Below, piece after piece: positions 35,047-52,920 of a stretch of DNA of 64,000 nt. Within the stretch, counting starts at the first letter, position 1; every line of letters starts with the position of its first letter. The notes beneath the pieces were generated by a model. The model saw nothing but the letters and a program-made list of their open reading frames with translations, searched no databases and was not told where the DNA came from. A program made the translations under genes and the position numbers. The DNA is from an uncultured Isosphaeraceae bacterium. GTDB lineage: Bacteria > Planctomycetota > Planctomycetia > Isosphaerales > Isosphaeraceae. The DNA is taken from NCBI GenBank assembly GCA_945957605.1, contig CAMFLR010000001.1, positions 186,001 through 250,000 of the forward strand, written 5' to 3'.

Positions 35047-37071
35047 TTGAACGTGACCGAGTTCCTCATTCATAACGCCTGGATTGTGCCGATTCTTCCT
35101 TTGATCGGAGGAATTTGCGCGGCGGTCGGCGGACGGTGGCTGAAGGGGAATAGCCATTTCCCCGTAGTCGCCGGAATCGGGCTTGCGTTCGTCGCTTCGC
35201 TCTTCCTCCTACTGGGAGAGGCAGGACACGCTCAACCGACTCCGCTGGGCTGGATCGAAGTCGCGGGCCTGACCATTCCGTTCCAGTTCCGCGTCGACGG
35301 CCTCACGACGATGATGCTGTCGATGGTGACGTTCGTCGCGTCTCTTGTGGCGATCTTCGCTTCGGGTTACATGGCAGGTGACCCTGGATACCCGCGTTTC
35401 TTCGCGGTTTTCGGGATGTTCGTGTCGTCGATGGCCGGCCTCGTGCTTTCGAGCAACTTTGCGCTCACGTATGTGTTCTGGGAAGGCGTGGGTGTTTGTT
35501 CGTATTTGCTGGTCGGCTTCTGGCACAGCAAGCCCTCTGCGGCGGCTGCGGCCAAGAAGGCGTTTCTGGTCAATCGCGTTGGTGACTTTGGCTTCGCGAT
35601 CGGCCTGTTCTGGCTCTGGTCGGTGACGAAGAATCACGACCTGAGCTACGACGCAGTTTTTGACGCGACGAACCTTGCGACGATCGGCCACGGGGCCTTG
35701 CTCGGTATCACTCTGCTCTTCTTCTGGGCGGCGACTGCGAAGTCGGCCCAGGTGCCGCTTTATGTGTGGTTGCCCGACGCGATGGAAGGCCCTACGCCTG
35801 TCTCCGCGCTCATTCACGCGGCCACGATGGTCACCGCCGGCGTTTATTTGATTGCGCGGTCGACCCCGATGGTCGTGCTTGTCCCCGAGGTTCAGGCGAC
35901 CGTGTCGGTGATCGGTTGCATCACCGCTCTGCTCGCGGCCCTGATCGCTTTGACCCAGAATGACCTGAAGCGGGTGATGGCCTATTCGACCGTCAGCCAG
36001 CTTGGTTATATGTTCATGGGCCTGGGGGCGGGTATTGGAGGCCTGGCGTCGTTCGCGGTCGTCGGAGCAATGTTCCACCTCTTCACGCACGCGTTCTTCA
36101 AGGCACTTTTGTTCCTTGCTTCCGGCTCGGTGATGCACTCGATGGGTGGCGTCATCGACATGCGACGGTTTAGCGGCTTGCGAAAGAAGATGCCGATCAC
36201 CTGCATCACGTTCGCGATTGGAGCCGCTGCTTTGATGGGCATCTTCCCCTTCGCTGGGTTCTGGTCGAAGGACGAGATCCTCGCTGCACTCAAGCTTGCG
36301 TCGCATGAGTCGGAAGGGCTCAAGGGTTTCTATCCTGAGATTTACATCGCGGTTTACTGGACTGCGATCGTCACCGCTGCACTCACCGCGTTCTACACCG
36401 GTCGAGCTTTCTTCATGACCTTCTGGGGTGAGGAAAAACTGCCGAGCCCGCACGACCCCGAGGCCGATCCCGCTGAGGATGCCGCCCACGGTCACGGTCA
36501 TGATGATGGCCACGCTCACGAGATCGGCCACGAATCCCCGCCACTGATGTGGATTCCGCTGGCGATTCTCGCAGTTTGCGCATTCGGCATCGGCGGTTTA
36601 CTTGGCCCCACGGGTTTGTTTGCTCATCATGTCGAGCACACCCCGGGCCTTGCCGAGATCGAAGGGGCCGCCCATCATGAATTCGACTATGCGACAGCGA
36701 TCATCAGTAGCGCGGGAGCATTGATTGCCCTGGCTGTCAGTTATCTCTTCTACGGCCGCAAGAGCACGATACCGGCCCAACTCGCCGAGCGGTTCCGTCC
36801 CGCGTATCTTGCGTCGCTCAACAAGTTCTATGTCGATGAAATCTACGCGATGGTGATTCTCGGTCCGCTCAAGTTCCTGGTTGCTACGGCCGCGTTCTTC
36901 GACACGGTGGTGGTTGACAACCTGGTGCTGGCGGCGGCGTGGATCCCTCGGCTGTTCGGGCGTTATGTGCTCGCTCCGTTCCAGAACGGACTGGTTCAAT
37001 TCTATGCGGCGGTCACTGCGCTCAGCGTGGCCGGCCTGCTGTTCGTGTTCATGTGGCTGAGTCTCTCTTAA
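35047..37071 (+). CDS. nuoL: NADH-quinone oxidoreductase subunit L with His-rich loop
   Basis: 674 residues from a TTG (35047); a GTG at 35053 is an alternative. About 15 helices form an antiporter-like core, with WEGVGVCSYLLVGFW, FWAATAKSAQVPLYVWLPDAMEGPTPVSALIHAATMV and LTQNDLKRVMAYSTVSQLGYM, the proton-pathway Glu and Lys included. A loop near residues 475-500 is very His-rich (HGHGHDDGHAHEIGH). The distal lateral helix that couples to NuoN/M is present. It is the end pump subunit of the membrane arm. Confidence 0.94.
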   Translation: MNVTEFLIHNAWIVPILPLIGGICAAVGGRWLKGNSHFPVVAGIGLAFVASLFLLLGEAGHAQPTPLGWIEVAGLTIPFQFRVDGLTTMMLSMVTFVASLVAIFASGYMAGDPGYPRFFAVFGMFVSSMAGLVLSSNFALTYVFWEGVGVCSYLLVGFWHSKPSAAAAAKKAFLVNRVGDFGFAIGLFWLWSVTKNHDLSYDAVFDATNLATIGHGALLGITLLFFWAATAKSAQVPLYVWLPDAMEGPTPVSALIHAATMVTAGVYLIARSTPMVVLVPEVQATVSVIGCITALLAALIALTQNDLKRVMAYSTVSQLGYMFMGLGAGIGGLASFAVVGAMFHLFTHAFFKALLFLASGSVMHSMGGVIDMRRFSGLRKKMPITCITFAIGAAALMGIFPFAGFWSKDEILAALKLASHESEGLKGFYPEIYIAVYWTAIVTAALTAFYTGRAFFMTFWGEEKLPSPHDPEADPAEDAAHGHGHDDGHAHEIGHESPPLMWIPLAILAVCAFGIGGLLGPTGLFAHHVEHTPGLAEIEGAAHHEFDYATAIISSAGALIALAVSYLFYGRKSTIPAQLAERFRPAYLASLNKFYVDEIYAMVILGPLKFLVATAAFFDTVVVDNLVLAAAWIPRLFGRYVLAPFQNGLVQFYAAVTALSVAGLLFVFMWLSLS

Positions 37072-37140
37072 CCGGGCGTCGACTGGCGAGGACGACTGAG
37101 TTTCCCTCCGACTTTCCGCTCTGGCTTGAGGATTTCCTCG

Positions 37141-38859
37141 ATGGCGAGCTTGCTTCTCCTGACCGTCTTCCTTCCCCTGGTGGGTGCCGCCGTACTGGCG
37201 GCGTCGCCCGGGCTCGACTATCGGAAGGCGCGGCGGAACGCCCTGGTCGTTGTGCTCGCCACACTCGCACTCAGCCTGTTCCTCCTCGCTGGCTTCGACC
37301 CCGACAAGTCTCGTCCGCAATTCGGCTTCGAGGACGGTGACGGCTCATTCGGCTTCCCGTGGATGGGCCAGCTCGGCGTGCGATTCGCGCTCGGCGTCGA
37401 TGGCGTCAGCCTCTGGCTGTTCGCACTCACGTCGCTGCTGATGATCACGGCGGTCTTCTCGTCGTGGGAGTCCATCAAGGAACGCGCCGCCACACATTAC
37501 GCACTGCTCTTGAGCCTACAAACCGGCCTGCTTGGCTTGTTTGCGAGTCTCGACGTCGTGATGTTCTACATCTTCTTCGAATTCACGCTCATACCGCTCT
37601 TCTTCCTGATCGGGTTGTACGGCGGTCACGATCGCAAGCGAGCGTCGGTGACGTTCTTCCTGTACACGCTCGCGGGTAGCTTGCTTACGCTCCTCGGTGT
37701 GATCGCGCTGGTCGGCGTTTATTACAGCCACACGGGCATTCTGACGTTCTCGATGCCCGAACTGACGAAGGGCTTGGCGACGCTCAAGTGGGACGGCTGG
37801 TTCGAGGCCGATTCGTGGGCGAGCCCGCAGGTTGTCATCTTCCTGCTGCTCTTCGCCGGCTTCGCAATCAAAGTGCCGATGTTCCCGTTCCACACGTGGC
37901 TGCCGCTGGCACACGTTGAAGCGCCGACCGCCGGGTCGATTCTGCTCGCCGGCGTCATGCTCAAGGTCGGCGGCTACGGGCTCTTCCGGTTCAATCTGGC
38001 GATGACCCCGCTCGGGGCGCAGTTCCTCTTCCCCTGGCTCGCCGCGCTCTCGGTTATCGGGATCGTCTACGGTGCACTGGCTGCACTCGCACAAACCGAT
38101 GTGAAGCGTCTCGTTGCGTATAGCTCGGTCAGTCACATGGGTTTCATCGTCCTCGGCCTGTTCTCGCTCAACGGAACGGGCATGGACGGTGCGATGATTC
38201 AGATGATCAATCACGGCATCACGACGGGCGCTCTATTCGCCTGTGTTGGTGTCTTTTACGAGCGTTATCACACACGCGAAATGGCGGAGTTGGGCGGTTT
38301 GTGGAACTGGTCGCCGCTCTGGGCGTTTTTCCTCATCCTCGCTTCGCTTGGCTCGGCGGCCGTGCCGCTCCTGAACGGATTCGTCGGCGAATTCCCGATT
38401 CTGCTCGGGATGTACCGTCGCTCGCCGCCACACGCGGTGATCGCCGCAATCGGTATGGTGCTCGGGGCGTACTATCTGCTCTGGATGCTCGAACGCGTCG
38501 TGTTCGGTCCGCTCAAGGAACCACACGTCCACGGTTCGGACGACTCTGCGAGCCACGGTGCCGCCGATTCGCACGGTCACGGACATGCTCATTCTCACGC
38601 CCGGCCGATTGGCTGGCATGAGATCGCTGGGCTGACTCCGCTCATGGTCCTGATCGTCTTCATCGGCGTATATCCCAAGCCATTCTTTGATCGGTTGCGA
38701 CCTGCGACCGAGCCGGTCGTTGCGAATATCACGGCGGAAGAACATCACGCGAAGGCGACAAAGCCCGTGACCGCGTTCGCCCGCCCCGAATCTGCTCCGA
38801 CCCCGCCGCAACCTGCCGCGCCCGCGACGAACGTCTCTCCGCGAGGACATAGCCTGTGA
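37141..38859 (+). CDS. nuoM: NADH-quinone oxidoreductase subunit M with His-rich loop
   Basis: 572 residues from the ATG at 37141 (GAGG 9 bases before); a TTG at 37126 is possible. It has about 14 helices and the antiporter signatures FFEFTLIPLFFLIG, KVPMFPFHTWLPLAHVEAPT and TDVKRLVAYSSVSHMGF. A loop near residues 462-485 is His-rich (HGHGHAHSHARPIG). The C-terminal 55 residues are Ala/Pro-rich and soluble. The stop overlaps the GTG of nuoN by 4 bases. Confidence 0.94.
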   Translation: MASLLLLTVFLPLVGAAVLAASPGLDYRKARRNALVVVLATLALSLFLLAGFDPDKSRPQFGFEDGDGSFGFPWMGQLGVRFALGVDGVSLWLFALTSLLMITAVFSSWESIKERAATHYALLLSLQTGLLGLFASLDVVMFYIFFEFTLIPLFFLIGLYGGHDRKRASVTFFLYTLAGSLLTLLGVIALVGVYYSHTGILTFSMPELTKGLATLKWDGWFEADSWASPQVVIFLLLFAGFAIKVPMFPFHTWLPLAHVEAPTAGSILLAGVMLKVGGYGLFRFNLAMTPLGAQFLFPWLAALSVIGIVYGALAALAQTDVKRLVAYSSVSHMGFIVLGLFSLNGTGMDGAMIQMINHGITTGALFACVGVFYERYHTREMAELGGLWNWSPLWAFFLILASLGSAAVPLLNGFVGEFPILLGMYRRSPPHAVIAAIGMVLGAYYLLWMLERVVFGPLKEPHVHGSDDSASHGAADSHGHGHAHSHARPIGWHEIAGLTPLMVLIVFIGVYPKPFFDRLRPATEPVVANITAEEHHAKATKPVTAFARPESAPTPPQPAAPATNVSPRGHSL

Positions 38860-41782: not shown

Positions 41783-42622
41783 ATGACGATATCGCCGCCC
41801 CGCCGCAGACTGCTTGGTACGATGGTGACTTATGGCTATCGGGACGACGATCTCAAGACCGATCTCGCGCTCGCGCTCAGGATGGACGTCGCTTGCGTCG
41901 AGGTGCTCCCCCACTGGAAACGCCTGCCCGATCCTCAGATTCTCAAACAGACGGTCGGCGATCAGGGGCTGTTTATCCATAGCGCCCACGGATGCTGGGG
42001 CGGGCAGTCGATCCGCGCGCGTCGCGTCGATCTCAGCAGTCTCGATGCGGCAGTTAGATCTGAAAGCTTGGATGACTTGAAACTCTGCATCGACTGGCTT
42101 GCCGAAGCCGGTGGACGCCATCTTGTCATCCATCCTGGCGGCCTTTCTGACCCAGAGTCGCAGGTCGAGCGAACTTCGATCATTGCCGACTCATTGATGG
42201 AACTTGCCGAACACGCCGCCGACACCGACGTCATTCTCTGCGTCGAGAACATGCCGACAGGCGTTTTTCCCGGCAGCTTGATGAGCGACCTCACCGCGAT
42301 TGTCGCTGAACTCGATTCACCGAAGGTCGCGCTCGCACTCGATACCGGACACGCGAATATCTCGAGCGATCTCGCCACCGAAACATCTGCCGCCGGCTCA
42401 CGGCTCGCCACCACGCACGTCCACGACAACAACGGCCGAGCCGACGTTCATCTTCCTCCCGGTCATGGCACAATCGACTGGCCCGCATGGGTGAAAAACC
42501 TCGACGACGTCGGTTATGAAGGGCCGATCATGCTCGAATGTATTCGCTACATTCGGGATAATCCTGATTGTTTGACGGATGACTTTATCCATCTCATACA
42601 GTCGATTGCCCGAACTTCGTAG
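41783..42622 (+). CDS. Sugar phosphate isomerase/epimerase (TIM barrel)
   Basis: 279 residues from the ATG at 41783 (AAGGG a few bases before). The AP-endonuclease-2-type TIM barrel is seen in its metal ligands and strands: VEVLPHW, IHSAHGCWGG, HLVIHPGG, ILCVENMPTG (Glu ligand), ALALDTGHANI (Asp/His), THVHDNNGRADVHLPPGHGTIDW (His ligands) and IMLECIRY (Glu). This family converts sugars or cleaves related substrates. It is divergent from the FabZ-like gene. The substrate is unknown. Confidence 0.9.
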   Translation: MTISPPRRRLLGTMVTYGYRDDDLKTDLALALRMDVACVEVLPHWKRLPDPQILKQTVGDQGLFIHSAHGCWGGQSIRARRVDLSSLDAAVRSESLDDLKLCIDWLAEAGGRHLVIHPGGLSDPESQVERTSIIADSLMELAEHAADTDVILCVENMPTGVFPGSLMSDLTAIVAELDSPKVALALDTGHANISSDLATETSAAGSRLATTHVHDNNGRADVHLPPGHGTIDWPAWVKNLDDVGYEGPIMLECIRYIRDNPDCLTDDFIHLIQSIARTS

Positions 42623-42733
42623 ATTGCCTCGAACGCCGTAATGGCGGCAGCTTAACTCGGCCGATAACCGGAGAGTGGCTTCGCGAGGAGCGAGCCCTTG
42701 AAGGATGTCGGCGCGAGGCAGGGAGCCGCCCGC

Positions 42734-44626
42734 ATGGACGAGAACTTGAATCGCCGGGAGGCGATTGGCGCGATTGGTGCCATCGGAGTGCTTGCAGCCC
42801 ACGCCGACTCGGTGCTTGGCCAGGTTCCAGACGTTCCCGCCCTACCCGATCCACGCCTCGGTGCCCATGCGCACGGCCATGGACACGGCGTCAAAGGTCG
42901 GATGACTGGCGCGAAGGCTGCGGTCACCGCGCTTCAGTGCGAATGCGTCCCCTGCGTCTTCGGCATCCCGGGCGCTCAGAACAACGAGTTCTGGGACGCG
43001 ATGAAAACGCTGGGCATGCCCTACCTGCTCGTCACGCACGAAGCGTCCGCTAGCGTCATGGCCGATGCAGCGGCGCGCGTGCTCGGTGGGGTCGGCGTCT
43101 GCTCTGTCGTCCCCGGTCCTGGCCTGACGAACGCCCTCACCGGCCTGGGCGAAGCGCTGCTCGATAGCATTCCAGTTGTCGCGCTGGTGACCGATGTTGC
43201 CCGCGGCCCTGGTAAGCCGTCGTTCCAGGTCCACTCACTTGCGAACACCGAGATTCTCAAGCCAATCACCAAAGCGGTTTTTGAGATTCATCATCAGGCG
43301 CAAATTCCTTCAACCATTCATGAAGCGTTTCGCGTCGCCCGCTGCGGCGAGCCTGGACCCGTAGCGGTCGTGCTACCGTTCAACTTCCTTTCGGAAGTTT
43401 GGGATTACGACGACGTCGTCCCGCCCCCTTACCCTGTGCCGTTCGACGAAAATGCCTATCGCCGTGCGCTCGGCTTGCTGTCGAACCGCAAGTTGCGCGT
43501 GGGGATTTATGCGGGACTCGGCTGCGTTGAGGTTGGCCCCCAACTCGCGCAGGCGGCCGAGATCATGCAGGCGCCGGTGGCGACTTCGGTCAGCGGCAAG
43601 GGTGTGATCCCTGATGCCCACCCTCTCGCCGTCGGCTGGGGATATGGCGCTCAAGGCACCCGCGCTGCCGAGCGTGCGTTCAAGGATGTCGACCTCGTGC
43701 TTGCCGTCGGTGTGAAATACAGCGAAGTGTCGACCGCGAACTACGCGATTCCCCGGCATCGCAACCTGATTCACGTCGATGCGAACGCCAAGAACCTCGG
43801 TCGTAACGTGCAGGCGAGTGTTTGCGTCAACGCTGATTCAAGCGTCTTCTTCAACCGTCTCGTTGCCGATGCCGCCTATGTCCAGCGCACCGCGGATCCT
43901 CGGTTGGCGCAGTCGATCAAGCGCGATCGCGAGGTTGATCGTTGCGAAAACCGCACGATTCGGGTTACGGAAGGCGTCGACCCGATGGCGTTTCTGTCGA
44001 CGCTTCGCTGCCGCCTCGGTCCTGACGAATTGTTCTTCATCGACGTGACCGCTTCAACCCACTGGGCGGCCGAAACGATCGACCTCCCTGGACCTCGCCG
44101 TTACTTCACGCCGGCGAACAATCAAAGCATGGGATGGGCGATCCCTGCTGCGATTGCCGCAAAGAAAGTGCGGTTTGATCGTGAAGTGGTTTCCGTCTCG
44201 GGTGACGGCTGCTTCCTGATGAGCGCGATCGAGATGTCGACCGCCGCACGTGCGGGATTGCCGGTGCGGTTTTTCATCTTCGATGACGGCGCGTATCACT
44301 ACATGCAAATGCTCCAGGAGCCGCAGTTCAAACGGACGACGGCGACCGAACTCGCTCGCATCAATTACCATGCCTATGCTCAGAGCATTGGGCTTGGATA
44401 CAATGAAATTCTCAGCAATGCCGATCTCGATCATGGCATCGCTCGGACGCTGGCGTGTCCGGGCCCCATTCTCACCCGCGTTGCCATCAGCTACGAAGGG
44501 CGCGAGCTTCGCTGGTTGAATGCCGCGAAATCAGCCTATATCCGCCGCATGCCCGGCGATCAAAAGGTACGCATGGCTTCTCGCGTCGCCGTTCGCAGCC
44601 TGAAACTTCATCCCGAAAACGACTGA
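42734..44626 (+). CDS. ThDP-dependent acetolactate synthase-like enzyme with Tat-like leader
   Basis: 630 residues from the ATG at 42734 (GGGAG 8 bases before); a TTG at 42698 is possible. The N-terminus has NRREAIGAIGAIGVLAA, a twin-arginine-like leader, and then a His-rich linker (HAHGHGHG) before the enzyme. The PYR domain has the catalytic Glu E103 (LVTHEASASVMADAAARVLGG). The PP domain has GDG at about residues 490-492 and a Mg-binding stretch that reads DDGAYHY. It resembles acetolactate synthase, benzaldehyde lyase or oxalyl-CoA decarboxylase. An exported ThDP enzyme is unusual. No small subunit or ilv gene is next to it. Confidence 0.85.
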   Translation: MDENLNRREAIGAIGAIGVLAAHADSVLGQVPDVPALPDPRLGAHAHGHGHGVKGRMTGAKAAVTALQCECVPCVFGIPGAQNNEFWDAMKTLGMPYLLVTHEASASVMADAAARVLGGVGVCSVVPGPGLTNALTGLGEALLDSIPVVALVTDVARGPGKPSFQVHSLANTEILKPITKAVFEIHHQAQIPSTIHEAFRVARCGEPGPVAVVLPFNFLSEVWDYDDVVPPPYPVPFDENAYRRALGLLSNRKLRVGIYAGLGCVEVGPQLAQAAEIMQAPVATSVSGKGVIPDAHPLAVGWGYGAQGTRAAERAFKDVDLVLAVGVKYSEVSTANYAIPRHRNLIHVDANAKNLGRNVQASVCVNADSSVFFNRLVADAAYVQRTADPRLAQSIKRDREVDRCENRTIRVTEGVDPMAFLSTLRCRLGPDELFFIDVTASTHWAAETIDLPGPRRYFTPANNQSMGWAIPAAIAAKKVRFDREVVSVSGDGCFLMSAIEMSTAARAGLPVRFFIFDDGAYHYMQMLQEPQFKRTTATELARINYHAYAQSIGLGYNEILSNADLDHGIARTLACPGPILTRVAISYEGRELRWLNAAKSAYIRRMPGDQKVRMASRVAVRSLKLHPEND

Positions 44627-44661: not shown

Positions 44662-45945
44662 TCAGGGATGATGTTTGTGATGGTGTCCGAATGATCCTGG
44701 CCCTGAAGGGTGGGCGTGTTGACGTACCACCACGGGGCGAACGGTCAAACTGTCTCCCTTGCCGGTGACAGATCCGATCGAGATCGCATTGGGATCGTGC
44801 TGATTGTGTCCGTGCCCCTCGTTGCCCATCGTGCCGCCGCCCATGTCGGGTTGGTCGGCGATAAGGGCATTTGGCGGGACGATTGCCAGTTGAGTGCCGG
44901 AACCGAAATTTAACTGGAGTGCATAATCTCCCGCGCCCGTTGCGCCCGAACTGGCGGCTCCAGCCTTGATGTAATAGACCTGCCCTGGAACGACGTTGGT
45001 GAGCGTGAGTCGAACGGTCGATCCGTACGAGCCAGCGTCCGTCGCATATCCCAAACTGACCTGTGACGAATTGTAGACCTGAACGCGCGGGCTCAATTCG
45101 CTGATGTTGGTCGACTGCATTGTGACCGTCATCGAGCCAGTTGTGCTTGCGGGAACAGTCACCTTGAACCAGCTTGCGGCGGTTGGCGCTGTGATATCGA
45201 GGTTCGTTAAAGCGATCTGGCCGTTCGTGCCAATTTGCGAAGTGATGTCGGCCGCACTGGTAATCGTCGTGTTCTGATAGATGGTCGTCCAGGCATCGGC
45301 CTGGCGTACGCCGTAGATCGAACGAATGCCTGATGTATCGTCCGTCGATAGCGTTGGTTTTGCCGACGTGTAGTAGCCGTACATGTCCGCGTTTGCCGCT
45401 GTCGCATGGCCCATCCCGAGTGCGTGGCCGAACTCGTGAATTGCGACGGTTAGCAGGTCGAAACCACCGTGCGGGTTCCAGTTCTGATTTGAATTGATGA
45501 CGACGTCGTCTGCGTTGGGGCCTCCATTGAAAGGGGGCGGCACAAAGGCCGAGGCAAGCGTGTTGGAAGCGAGCGGAATGGCACTAATCCGGATGTCGCC
45601 GTTATTGGGATCACCCTGCTGATAGCTGCCGCCGCCGAGGGGCGCACCATTATCGGCTACCATGACGAGATTGACGTTCGCAACCTGCTCCCAGATTGCG
45701 GCGGCTTGCTGGAAGACGCTCTGCCAGTTGGGGACCTGGCTGTTGAGCGTTGAGTAGAGCGAACTTGCTGTCCCGCCGATGTTCGTGCCGTCGGGTACGA
45801 AGCTGAAGGTGATTCGATCCGGCTGCGCGAATGCCCCACCGGTTGTCGAATAGAGTAGGAATCGGTCTTCCAGACCTTCAAGTCGCGGCTTGGATTTCCG
45901 TGAGAGCCGCTTGAAGTCTTTTCGCCGAGCTTCGTATTGTTCCAT
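44662..45945 (-). CDS. Matrixin-type secreted metalloprotease (copy 1)
   Basis: 427 residues. A short basic N-terminus carries the planctomycete surface tag RLEGLEDRFLL (residues 21-31). The catalytic domain spans about residues 35-215, with zinc ligands H170, H174 and H180 in HEFGHALGMGH and a following methionine (M188) fit for the Met-turn. Behind it a beta-domain of about 150 residues (FKVTVPASTTGSMTVTMQS) resembles a PPC-type pre-peptidase module. The tail is His-rich (GHHHKHHP). It should cleave extracellular proteins. The second copy at 46731-48047 is closely similar. Confidence 0.9.
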   Translation of the reverse strand: MEQYEARRKDFKRLSRKSKPRLEGLEDRFLLYSTTGGAFAQPDRITFSFVPDGTNIGGTASSLYSTLNSQVPNWQSVFQQAAAIWEQVANVNLVMVADNGAPLGGGSYQQGDPNNGDIRISAIPLASNTLASAFVPPPFNGGPNADDVVINSNQNWNPHGGFDLLTVAIHEFGHALGMGHATAANADMYGYYTSAKPTLSTDDTSGIRSIYGVRQADAWTTIYQNTTITSAADITSQIGTNGQIALTNLDITAPTAASWFKVTVPASTTGSMTVTMQSTNISELSPRVQVYNSSQVSLGYATDAGSYGSTVRLTLTNVVPGQVYYIKAGAASSGATGAGDYALQLNFGSGTQLAIVPPNALIADQPDMGGGTMGNEGHGHNQHDPNAISIGSVTGKGDSLTVRPVVVRQHAHPSGPGSFGHHHKHHP

Positions 45946-46730: not shown

Positions 46731-48047
46731 TCAGTGGTGTCCGAAGTGATGCACGGCATGGTGATGAACCGGTGCGGGTTTCGAATGAAACGCGTGCTGG
46801 CGCGCCACACGAGGACGGACGGAGTAATGGTCTCCCACGCCGCTCAACGTGCCGAGCGTGATCGTGAGAAGGTCATCAACGCTCAGAAGCAGGCGACCCA
46901 GGATGCCGCCTCCGAAGCCTGTTTCACCCAGAGATTGGCTCCCAGAGCTTTGTTGATTCGGAAGGAGCACATTGGGCGGCGTGATCGGCGCCTGAGCTTG
47001 CGAACCGAAGTTCAACTGCAGCGCATAGTCGCCCGCGCCGGTTGCTCCTGATCCGGCTGCAGAGGTTTTGATGTAGTAAACCTGGCCCGGGACGATATTG
47101 TTCAGGGTGACACGCACCGTCGATCCGTAGGAGCCGGCGTCTGTCGCGTACCCCATGCTCGTCTGGGCAGAGTTGTAAACCTGAACGCGCGGGCTGAGTT
47201 CGCTGATGTTGGTCGACTGCATCGTGACCGTCATCGTACCAGTCGATGACGACGGAACGGTCACTTTGAACCAGTTCGAGACGGTTGCCGACGTGATGTC
47301 GAGATTCGTCAGGGAAATCTGGCTGTTCGTGTCAATTTGCGAAGTGATGTTGGCTGCATTGGAAATGGTGGTGTTTTGATAGTTGGCCGTCCAACTGTCG
47401 GCCTGACGTGCTCCGTAGATCGCCTTGATGCCTGAGATGTCATCGGTGCTGAGGGCCGATTTCGACGTCGTGTAATAGGCGTACATATCGGCGCTGGTGG
47501 TTGACGAGTGACCCAACCCAAGTGCGTGACCCAATTCGTGGATCGCCACACTCAAGAGGTCGTAACCGTTGCGGGAAGTCCAATTCTGATTGGAGTTGAA
47601 GACGATGTCATCCGCGACCGGGCCACCGTTCAGCGACGGCGGCATGAAGGCGGATGCAAGCGTGCTCGACCCTTGAGGAATGGCACTGATCCGAATATCG
47701 CCGTTGTTGGGATCGCCCTGTCGATAGTTCCCCGAACCCATCGGCGCACCATTGTCGGATACCATCACGAGATTGATATTCGCGACCTGTTCCCAGATGG
47801 CGGCCGCTTGCTGAAACACTCCCTGCCAGTTGGAGACTTGTCCGTTAAAGGTTGAGTAAAGGCTGCTCGGTGTTCCACCAACATCCGTGCCGTCTGGTGC
47901 GAAACTAAACGTGATTCGGTCGGGTAGCGCGAATGCTCCGCCGGTTGTGGAGTAGAGCAAAAAGCGGTCTTCCAGACCCTCGAGACGCGGCTTGGATTTC
48001 CGCAAGCGCCGCGTCTCGCCTTTTTGCCGTGCACCGAAATGTTGCAT
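46731..48047 (-). CDS. Matrixin-type secreted metalloprotease (copy 2)
   Basis: 438 residues from the ATG at 48047; the open frame reaches further upstream but the family start is here. It aligns with copy 1 without gaps across the first 200 residues, including RLEGLEDRFLL and the zinc site HELGHALGLGH at H170, H174 and H180, then ADM with the Met-turn. The beta-domain follows. The C-terminal part is longer and ends His-rich (HHHAVHHFGHH). The two genes look like a tandem duplication that has diverged at its tails. It should be secreted and act outside the cell. Confidence 0.9.
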   Translation of the reverse strand: MQHFGARQKGETRRLRKSKPRLEGLEDRFLLYSTTGGAFALPDRITFSFAPDGTDVGGTPSSLYSTFNGQVSNWQGVFQQAAAIWEQVANINLVMVSDNGAPMGSGNYRQGDPNNGDIRISAIPQGSSTLASAFMPPSLNGGPVADDIVFNSNQNWTSRNGYDLLSVAIHELGHALGLGHSSTTSADMYAYYTTSKSALSTDDISGIKAIYGARQADSWTANYQNTTISNAANITSQIDTNSQISLTNLDITSATVSNWFKVTVPSSSTGTMTVTMQSTNISELSPRVQVYNSAQTSMGYATDAGSYGSTVRVTLNNIVPGQVYYIKTSAAGSGATGAGDYALQLNFGSQAQAPITPPNVLLPNQQSSGSQSLGETGFGGGILGRLLLSVDDLLTITLGTLSGVGDHYSVRPRVARQHAFHSKPAPVHHHAVHHFGHH

Positions 48048-48441
48048 GGATAGTTCCGTTCGTGACGTCGTCGATTCGGATTTCGCACACGTTGGCAACC
48101 ATAGGCTCTGAATTCTGCCTGTGTTGCCCAGTGTCGCGCCAATGTCAAAAAGATGTTTCCCGGCAGCAAAAAGGTGAGAAAAGCCGTCAAAATGGGTGTA
48201 AAAACGCCGCATGCGACCCGATCAACCACTGGGGTCTGAAAAGTAATCCAAATTGCTCGCTGTTCAGGTTTTTTTGGAGACCGCGAGTCAAAATTGGCAA
48301 TTCGCATCCGCAATGACTTGCTCTTTACGGAAGATCGCATCGACCGTAAGATGCCGCCCGGTTGCCGTACTGCCAGGCTATTGATGGCGTGGGACATGGA
48401 TGCTCCCTCGTCTCGGCGACCCGCATGGAACCGCGAAAACC
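48048..48441. other. Divergent intergenic region before the ABC exporter
   Basis: About 390 bases between matrixin copy 2 and the ABC permease. It must hold both promoters. A TTGACT occurs on the minus strand near 48286 without a matching -10. A T-run (48269-48275) and no gene are seen. Confidence 0.4.
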
Positions 48442-50575: not shown

Positions 50576-52369
50576 TTACGAAACGCTCGCCACGAACTCG
50601 GCCGAACTGGCGAGCGCGACCGCCAGGCCATTCGCGGTGAGCTTGCCCGTCTGGAAGAGCGCCAGGCAATTGTCGACCGCCGTAGCTTCCGGCTGGCGGC
50701 CCAGGTAGGCCAGGTACAGGGCGTCGATCGTATTGATCTGCGCTTCGGCGCTATTAAGGAGGAACTGGACCAACTGGTACCGGCTCAATCCTCGCGTGAT
50801 CGCCACCTGCGCGTTCGCGACTTCGCTTGGCGAGGCCGTGCGCTTGAGCACGTCCTGGTAGACTGACTGAACGAAGTCGGTATTGCTCACGTGCAGCGTG
50901 TTGTACTCGACCGAACCGAGCAAGGCGAGATGCAACCCATTGGCAGTCAAGCCGTTGAGCATCGCGCTGACGCCATTCGCCTGCTCTGCTAGGCTGGCCG
51001 CGCGACCGAGATCCGCCTTATATGCCGCCTGGACGAGAATGCTGTCGTACTCGGCGGAGGTCAGCAGAATGGCAGCCATCTGGCCGACCGGCGTACCGGC
51101 TTCAATCGCATTGACGGCTGCACTCAGACCCGTGGGGTCCGGTGCGCGGCCGAGGATCGTGAGATAAAGCTTTTGCACCTCAGCGGTTGCGACAGCCACG
51201 CTCGGCGGCGGAGCTGGCGGTGTGATCGTCGTTGAGTTCTTCGTGAGCGCGGCGATCAGCGTGCCGCCTGCTGGCGTGCCAATGCCGGTCGACGAGAGCG
51301 TTACCGAGGTTCCCGTACTGCGACGGAAGTTGCCCGTAGCGGTCTTGACGATGACCGCGGAGTTAATGACCGTCTCGAACGCCGACGTGTTCGCCAGCGC
51401 GTAAAGCCGGGGAATTGTTTGAGTTGCGCCGTCCATGCTGGGACTGCCGGCCAGGTTGAGGCCCTGGTCAACGATGGCGATGATTCCAGCCCACGCCGGG
51501 GAGCCCAGGCTGGTTCCGCCGACCGTCGACCAGCTTCCACGCCCGTTCGACGGATTCGTCGTATAAACGTCGACGCCCGTATTCGGATCGCCTAAGAAGG
51601 AGACGTCGGGCACGGTCCGCTTGCCGGTCGATTGCACGTTGGCCTGGTAGGCCGGCTGGTTTTCATACTTGCTGACACCGACGCCGCTGCCGCTCCAGGC
51701 CGTCTCGCTGATGTACTTGCCACCGGAGCCGGTGGTAAGCGTGGTGCCTCCGACAGAAAGCACATTCGGCGAGCTGGCCGGCCACTCTGCACCGCCGCTC
51801 GCGCCGTTGTCGCCGCTCGCGGTGATGAAGGTGATTCCCGTATGTCCTGCTGGCGTCGTGAAATAGGTTGAGTCGTATGACGATTCGTTCGCGAGCTCAG
51901 GGCCGCCCCAGCTCATCGAGACGGCGACGACGCCAGCGGTGTTTCGCGCAACTGCAACGGCGGCGAGCAGGTCGTTGGTGTTATCGCTGGCCGCTTCGAC
52001 CACCACCAGTTTCGCACCAGGGGCGATGGCATGGGCCCATTCGACGTCGAGCGTTTCCTCGCCCGCCCAGCCGTCGTCGGTGGCGTTTCCGGCGAGGTTG
52101 ATTTGATTCAACACGGGGTCCGGCAAATTATAGCGGACGTCAAACGTGTGCAGGTCGCTGACGAGATATGGGTCGTGGAAGGCGACCACGATGGCGATTG
52201 TCTCGCCCGTTCCATCAGCCGCGACGACGGAGCCGTTGGAAGTCTTGAACCCAACAGCACTTAAACCATATGCGGTTTTGATCTGCGCGGGTGAGTAACC
52301 CGAGAGGACCAACCGCTCTTCCAGCCCTTCCATGGCCGGTTTGTAGCGAAGTGGAGAATAGCGAGGCAT
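50576..52369 (-). CDS. Sedolisin (S53) family protease with DUF4214 modules
   Basis: 597 residues from the ATG at 52369. The N-terminus bears the surface tag MEGLEERLVLS (13-23). The catalytic set of sedolisins is complete: E104 and D108 (EETLDVEWAHA), the oxyanion-hole Asp D187 (ASGDNGA), and Ser S287 in GGTSLGSPAWAG. A calcium-site-like loop follows. The C-terminal 200 residues hold two to three DUF4214 units (YLTILGRAPDPTGLSAAV, VYQDVLKRTASPSEVAN, LYLAYLGRQPEATAVDN). It should be a secreted acid serine protease fixed to the surface by the C-terminal modules. It converges on the coiled-coil gene, 13 bases apart. Confidence 0.92.
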   Translation of the reverse strand: MPRYSPLRYKPAMEGLEERLVLSGYSPAQIKTAYGLSAVGFKTSNGSVVAADGTGETIAIVVAFHDPYLVSDLHTFDVRYNLPDPVLNQINLAGNATDDGWAGEETLDVEWAHAIAPGAKLVVVEAASDNTNDLLAAVAVARNTAGVVAVSMSWGGPELANESSYDSTYFTTPAGHTGITFITASGDNGASGGAEWPASSPNVLSVGGTTLTTGSGGKYISETAWSGSGVGVSKYENQPAYQANVQSTGKRTVPDVSFLGDPNTGVDVYTTNPSNGRGSWSTVGGTSLGSPAWAGIIAIVDQGLNLAGSPSMDGATQTIPRLYALANTSAFETVINSAVIVKTATGNFRRSTGTSVTLSSTGIGTPAGGTLIAALTKNSTTITPPAPPPSVAVATAEVQKLYLTILGRAPDPTGLSAAVNAIEAGTPVGQMAAILLTSAEYDSILVQAAYKADLGRAASLAEQANGVSAMLNGLTANGLHLALLGSVEYNTLHVSNTDFVQSVYQDVLKRTASPSEVANAQVAITRGLSRYQLVQFLLNSAEAQINTIDALYLAYLGRQPEATAVDNCLALFQTGKLTANGLAVALASSAEFVASVS

Positions 52370-52920
52370 GGAAGGAATCCAGGTGGCGATCAACGGGAGA
52401 TGCACCATTATGCATCATTAAGGTGAGGCTACTGACCCTTTACGTTGGAAATGCACCGAATGTCACCCGTATTTTTTGAGATCGATCAACGCTGTTTCGT
52501 CGAGAGGACACGAGGCTTATCTAGTGCGCAAGTGCTTTGCATTCATGTGTTTTGATCTGGTCGTCGAACGAGTGTCTCTATCGACGCATCCATGGATATT
52601 GAGTGACTGTTTCTTTTTGTGAACACCCTGACACGTTGCGCTTGCACATTCCAGAAGTGATTGTTTTACTTGACATAGAAATATCTCAATGCCGATGCTG
52701 CAAAGCCTTGCGCCACGCGCAGCATTTCCACAGGGTGAAACTCGACGTGTGAGGAGGTTTCACGCTCGAAAGAGTGTGTGTTTCGTCGTCCGTCCGCGCT
52801 GTGCCTTGCGGAGTCTGAAGTATCGGAATCGGCGGCCAATGGATCCTGTGCTCGCCATGTAAACCGCTCGATGATCGAGCAATTGCTTCGTCGCATTTAT
52901 TTGAACGGGAGTGCTCAGTT
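52370..52920. other. AT-rich divergent intergenic region
   Basis: About 550 bases between the sedolisin gene and the PEP-CTERM gene. A CATAAT lies on the minus strand at 52407-52412, a plausible -10 for the sedolisin gene, and TTGACA at 52670 on the plus strand has no -10 partner. No gene or repeat is evident. Confidence 0.4.

Follow-up and report, generated by a model that had tools for sequence, protein, structure and literature searches.

Is a ThDP-dependent enzyme of the acetolactate-synthase fold exported from the cell in some planctomycetes? To our knowledge, such enzymes are taken as cytoplasmic, and the stretch of DNA analyzed here (64,000 nucleotides, referred to as the window), from an Isosphaeraceae genome of 8.8 Mb, encodes one that begins with a twin-arginine (Tat)-type leader. 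A sequence-only reading of this locus had described an acetolactate synthase-like enzyme with a twin-arginine-like leader and had proposed its export by Tat. Our analysis bears out the enzyme and its leader, and it lends strong support to the predicted export.

The enzyme, identified from its open reading frame, Pfam domains and structural comparison, comprises 630 residues and is encoded on the forward strand at 42734-44626, with the ATG at 42734 and the stop codon at 44624-44626. A direct reading of the upstream sequence revealed a ribosome-binding-site-like AGGGAG (42720-42725) 8 nt 5' of the ATG; initiation at an alternative TTG (42698) would lengthen the protein by 12 residues. The protein begins with MDENLNRREAIGAIGAIGV. 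Based on comparison with orthologues, residues 1-30 (42734-42823) form the Tat-type leader, with N6-R7-R8, an uncharged stretch at 10-22 and a possible cleavage site near VLG-Q, and residues 31-56 (42824-42901) form a variable linker. The Pfam domains TPP_enzyme_N (57-157; 42902-43204), TPP_enzyme_M (the central domain, 244-375; 43463-43858) and TPP_enzyme_C (437-580; 44042-44473) follow in that order, each above its cut-off. The orthologue alignment further delimited a conserved C-terminal tail at residues 591-630 (44504-44623), marked by R593, W594, R617, R621 and a final D630, the last of which was present in 26 of 26 sequences in an alignment of 26 orthologues.

The linker does contain the His-rich tract HAHGHGHG (residues 45-52; 42866-42889) that the sequence-only reading had pointed out, but the tract is not conserved and adds nothing to the export reading. 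Among 29 orthologues, only the closest relative was partly alike (HHAHSRG in L002). His-rich tracts also occur in neighboring open reading frames, namely 35047-37071 and 37126-38859, which encode complex-I-type subunits, and 44662-45945, which encodes a matrixin, so that the feature is not special to the ThDP enzyme. A functional role for the tract was rejected, since of the orthologues compared only this enzyme and, in part, L002 possess it.

We further analyzed the catalytic core. An AlphaFold prediction based on 26 orthologues had a mean pLDDT of 81.7, with residues 12-50 below 50 and a low-confidence helix in the leader at residues 7-21. The best structural match of the model was acetohydroxyacid synthase (AHAS; Z 39.5, rmsd 3.1, 536 aligned residues), and the closest PDB sequence was AHAS isozyme 1 (6lpi). 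We compiled a residue table in which 90 orthologues, nine sister homologues and 16 of 23 ThDP paralogues were aligned. Glu103 (43040-43042), which we take to be the catalytic Glu, the motif G490-D491-G492 (44201-44209), M466, K180, Q165 and H167 were present in all 90 orthologues and all nine sisters. The ThDP motif ends in DD (residues 517-518; 44282-44287) in place of NN, a closing pair that is typical of this motif and not obligatory; D517 was kept in 87 and D518 in 88 of the 90 orthologues, and D518 also occurred in 9/9 sisters and 3/16 paralogues.

Assignment to a named activity was less direct, as none of the curated cut-offs for acetolactate synthase or glyoxylate carboligase was reached among the best 25 models listed. 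The acetolactate synthase equivalogs TIGR00118 and TIGR02418 scored 271.7 of 538.35 and 214.4 of 551.1 bits, respectively, and the pyruvate oxidase equivalog NF006377 scored 201.9 of 742. Glyoxylate carboligase was rejected because NF008431 (216.5 of 791) missed its cut-off and because the catalytic Glu, which glyoxylate carboligase lacks, is present. The best NCBIfam score, 277.9 bits, belonged to a ThDP "hypothetical protein" subfamily (PRK08266/NF006122), below its cut-off of 571. Compared with acetolactate/acetohydroxyacid synthases (IlvB, AlsS), the enzyme shares the fold, the three domains, the catalytic Glu and the GDG motif, but it differs in its Tat leader, its DD for NN, its distance from the TIGR00118 cut-off and an identity of only about 22-27%. 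Pyruvate oxidase and pyruvate:quinone oxidoreductase (PoxB/PQO) are likewise similar in fold (Z 35.7-38.2) but share 21-23% identity. As in these enzymes, the C-terminal tail may have a membrane role; PoxB differs in working from the cytoplasmic side.

To assess the conservation of the leader, we assembled 109 orthologue loci, consisting of 29 of the 30 from a first search and 80 kept out of 161 relatives, which were reduced to 90 non-redundant sequences; L030, a 202-residue fragment lacking the N-terminus, was left out of the counts. A stricter first pattern, which penalized charged residues right after the RR, recognized a leader in 63 of the 90 orthologues and in 0/23 ThDP paralogues, of which three came from the same genome and 20 were picked from other genomes' rows. 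The pattern was loosened after this result was known, and the loosened form, requiring RR, up to six residues and then a run of 11 or more uncharged residues before the core, was applied to the controls as well. It was passed by 90/90 orthologues, 2/23 paralogues and 0/9 sister homologues, and in the two passing paralogues (L131 and L141) the RR lies upstream of a likelier ATG start. Judged from these sequence counts, the RR leader exceeds chance occurrence. The leader-bearing orthologues span three planctomycete families at 48-82% identity, the closest relative in the named collection being another Isosphaeraceae protein (L035, 82%). The comparison of orthologue N-termini that the sequence-only reading had suggested finds the leader kept in all direct orthologues.

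At each of the two leader arginines, all six Arg codons are in use among the 90 orthologues, indicating selection on these amino acids rather than on the DNA. When 28 leaders were aligned, R7 and R8 were the sole invariant columns among 95, and G55, M57, G59 and A60 at the border of the core were nearly invariant. The residue before the RR was S in 37, N in 32 and T in 16 of the 90 orthologues (S/N/T in 85/90), the third and fourth positions after it were mostly hydrophobic, and the fifth was often Q, G or K; these preferences resemble the Tat motif. The mean Kyte-Doolittle value of the best 13-mer in the orthologue leaders was 1.65. One RR-leader orthologue, L013 (= L043), shows no ATG, GTG or TTG within 12-14 codons before the RR, perhaps because translation starts at a noncanonical codon or because the n-region is longer.

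Two Tat models, PF10518 and TIGR01409, each matched 13 of 28 orthologue leaders and left 15 unmatched, and in both libraries they matched more of these leaders than any other family. The leader of the enzyme in the window itself matched no family, including these two. Among the N-termini of the control paralogues and sisters, PF10518 matched 0/32, and TIGR01409 was not among the best 25 of the 62 matching families. The genome encodes one TatC and two TatA/B-type proteins. Taken together, these results are best explained by a ThDP lyase or carboligase with predicted Tat export to the periplasm, shared by Isosphaeraceae, Gemmataceae and one further family.

When 294 genomes from across the phylum were searched (E <= 1e-100), nine homologues besides the enzyme itself were identified (L115-L123), none of which carried the leader pattern. 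Six of them have just 8-23 in-frame residues ahead of the core, which leaves no room for a leader, and in L120, L122 and L123 the open frame reaches further upstream but does not contain the leader pattern. The open frames of L117 and L118 extend over 579 and 583 residues without a stop. These sisters resemble the leader-bearing enzyme in the core, with H167, D518, R617 and R621 in 9/9, and the two arginines of the C-terminal tail (R617 and R621) are gapped in 15 and 16 of the 16 paralogues, respectively. They differ from it in lacking the leader and in carrying other residues at several positions of the catalytic domains. N84, W87, Y97 and N463 (each 90/90 orthologues), Y523 (89) and H443 (86) were found in 0/9 sisters and 0/16 paralogues; W468 (90) and Y521 (88) occurred in 0/9 sisters and in three and two of the 16 paralogues; and Q82, Q464 and C493, constant in the leader clade, were present in three, three and two sisters. 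These clade-specific residues indicate that changes in the catalytic domains accompanied the leader, and their nearness in sequence to the catalytic motifs suggests that they may line the pocket.

In a tree of 107 sequences, comprising 90 leader-bearing orthologues, nine leaderless sisters and eight of the 23 paralogues, the leader-bearing sequences made up one side of a branch with an SH-aLRT support of 100. The nine sisters were grouped beside this clade (88), and the eight paralogues fell outside. The tree was built by a quick method, and its long paralogue branches may be falsely joined, which makes the position of the root less certain than the separation of leader-bearing from sister sequences. 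As the leader-bearing sequences form one group beside the leaderless sisters, the simplest reading of the tree is that the leader was probably gained once. The sequence-only reading had regarded orthologues lacking the first 55 residues as a sign of a later start; all 90 direct orthologues keep the leader, and the leaderless homologues (9/9) do exist but constitute a separate sister group, which suggests that they point to the origin of the enzyme rather than to a misplaced start. At the two sister loci examined for this feature, L120 and L121, a GMC oxidoreductase gene (PF00732 + PF05199; 5728-7281 and 6017-7531, respectively, both on the reverse strand) lies upstream of the ThDP gene, and its product is a possible partner of the sister enzyme in another pathway.

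Several other explanations of the N-terminal extension were weighed against periplasmic export. The leader might be used by Tat and remain uncut, so that the enzyme stays tethered on the periplasmic side of the cytoplasmic membrane. A tether would accord with the linker, whose length varies (28-54 residues from the RR to the core in 29 orthologues), with the conserved basic C-terminal tail and with a leader that, in this enzyme, is without a textbook A-x-A. However, an A/V/S-x-A site was present in 74 of 84 leaders (6 of the 90 were too short and left out), above each of 500 shuffles (59.9, standard deviation = 3.3, highest 69). This excess is modest, and we consider tethering unlikely while still according it some weight. 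Alternatively, the enzyme may stay in the cytoplasm, its extension serving membrane contact, regulation or compartment targeting and its RR not being read by Tat. While the failure of either Tat model to match the leader in the window would be expected in that case, the RR is invariant among the orthologues and followed by an uncharged stretch, and in either library no family matches more leaders than the general Tat model; this makes a cytoplasmic enzyme very unlikely in our judgment. As to compartments, a microcompartment targeting peptide was rejected, because no charged amphipathic pattern was visible by eye.

The start of translation raises two further alternatives. If the true protein began near residue 57, the leader would not be translated at all, and among the matches listed, homology to solved ThDP enzymes indeed rarely sets in before about residue 53. 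Such a start is hard to reconcile with an RR in 90/90 orthologues, and between L001 and L002 the differences at the three codon positions were 12/8/24 across the 37 leader codons versus 10/15/14 across the 20 codons before the ATG. We regard a misplaced start as extremely improbable. A second start at Met57 might instead yield a cytoplasmic form beside the exported one, in line with the ATG found at this place in 72 of the 90 orthologues. Yet the remaining 18 lack an ATG at this position, having codons for Leu (14, including two TTG), Phe (two), Lys (one) or Tyr (one), and the matching residue is Met in only one of the nine sisters, so that Met57 is not simply an old start; we consider a dual location very unlikely.

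Returning to periplasmic export as the preferred reading, we consider it highly probable that the enzyme depends on Mg and ThDP, has the acetolactate-synthase fold, folds while still in the cytoplasm, is carried by Tat to the periplasm and there cleaves or joins C-C bonds on a 2-oxo acid or related carbonyl compound. Support comes from a Tat-type leader under strong selection, the Tat genes, an intact catalytic core, the clade-specific residues of the catalytic domains and a tree in which a single origin of the leader is the simplest reading. After translation with its leader, the enzyme would fold in the cytoplasm, bind Mg-ThDP at the dimer interface prior to export, cross into the periplasm via the Tat translocase, probably lose its leader by cleavage and carry out ThDP chemistry on a carbonyl substrate there. 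Enzymes of the acetolactate-synthase fold bind ThDP between two subunits, and export with bound cofactor would therefore mean that at least a dimer is exported; alternatively, subunits may be exported and take up ThDP outside. We tentatively propose, with somewhat more doubt than confidence, that in Isosphaeraceae and Gemmataceae Tat exports a dedicated enzyme for periplasmic ThDP-dependent C-C chemistry as a preassembled dimer, its ThDP being locked at the subunit interface. ThDP would then represent a new class of Tat cofactor, and a ThDP enzyme would have left the cytoplasm a single time during planctomycete evolution and acquired a changed active site.

Tat moves folded, cofactor-bearing proteins such as molybdo-, Fe-S- and NADP-enzymes, with which the present enzyme has the RR leader in common. 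If our reading is true, a single-copy and widely kept exported ThDP enzyme would lengthen the list of cofactors carried by Tat, make one ask by what route a cofactor bound at a subunit interface gets out of the cell, and suggest an unusual periplasmic reaction. The leaderless sister group offers a natural before-and-after comparison for the export leader. No report of ThDP as a Tat cofactor or of a Tat-exported ThDP enzyme was found in the titles and abstract openings of the papers listed in searches of an open-access collection, and the main text of a Tuwongella subcellular proteome (PMC8567305) contains neither "acetolactate" nor "thiamine".

To investigate how the enzyme is distributed, we searched genomes of its own family and class. 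Matches of at least 340 bits were found in 23 of 25 genomes of Isosphaeraceae, with the match in G016 confined to a 202-residue fragment at the edge of a contig; the two genomes without a match are 74% and 68% complete. Such matches were also found in 4/4 genomes of Gemmataceae and 3/3 of a further family that includes Planctomycetes bacterium Pan216, and in 0/8 genomes of four other families of the class. In a class-wide sample (E <= 1e-150), 111 of 297 genomes matched, each of them once. These were 42 of the 45 Isosphaeraceae genomes, 66 from Gemmataceae and three from the further family, the Gemmataceae figure counting matching genomes only, as others of that family may be among the 166 genomes not listed. 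Relatives on plasmids were considered and rejected: a tblastn search with residues 56-630 returned 1423 records, all below 60% identity, the best 15 of the 1423 showing 29-31%.

Finally, we examined the genomic neighborhood. Upstream lie genes for three complex-I-type membrane subunits, a TrmB-type methyltransferase, a FabA-like protein and a TIM-barrel isomerase/epimerase-like protein (PF01261; 41783-42622, forward strand, ATG at 41783), and downstream lie two matrixin genes and an ABC transporter pair, consisting of an ABC-2 type permease (PF01061; 48400-49326, forward strand) followed by an ATPase (PF00005; 49280-50110, forward strand). No ilv gene was seen among the open reading frames next to the ThDP enzyme, in agreement with the sequence-only reading. 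The isomerase is the same-strand upstream neighbor at 14 of 21 Isosphaeraceae-clade loci and 0 of 39 others, and the permease lies at most 4 kb downstream at 16 of 21 and 0 of 45, respectively. The usual order in this clade is methyltransferase, FabA-like protein, isomerase, ThDP enzyme, permease and ATPase; in the window, the two matrixin genes sit between the ThDP enzyme and the permease. Across families, the gene neighbors share no common pathway. This arrangement is particular to the lineage, and the neighbors do not name the substrate; a function derived from them (a polysaccharide-export or isomerase-partner link) was rejected, being no more than a lineage lead given its absence elsewhere.

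The two tandem matrixin (M10) genes, at 44662-45945 and 46731-48212 (-), encode KPRLEGLEDRFLL near the N-terminus, which resembles LxLExLExRxxP, a planctomycete cell-surface motif given in the same proteome study (PMC8567305). A similar sequence, MEGLEERLVLSG, occurs together with a DUF4214 domain in the product of the open reading frame at 50576-52408.
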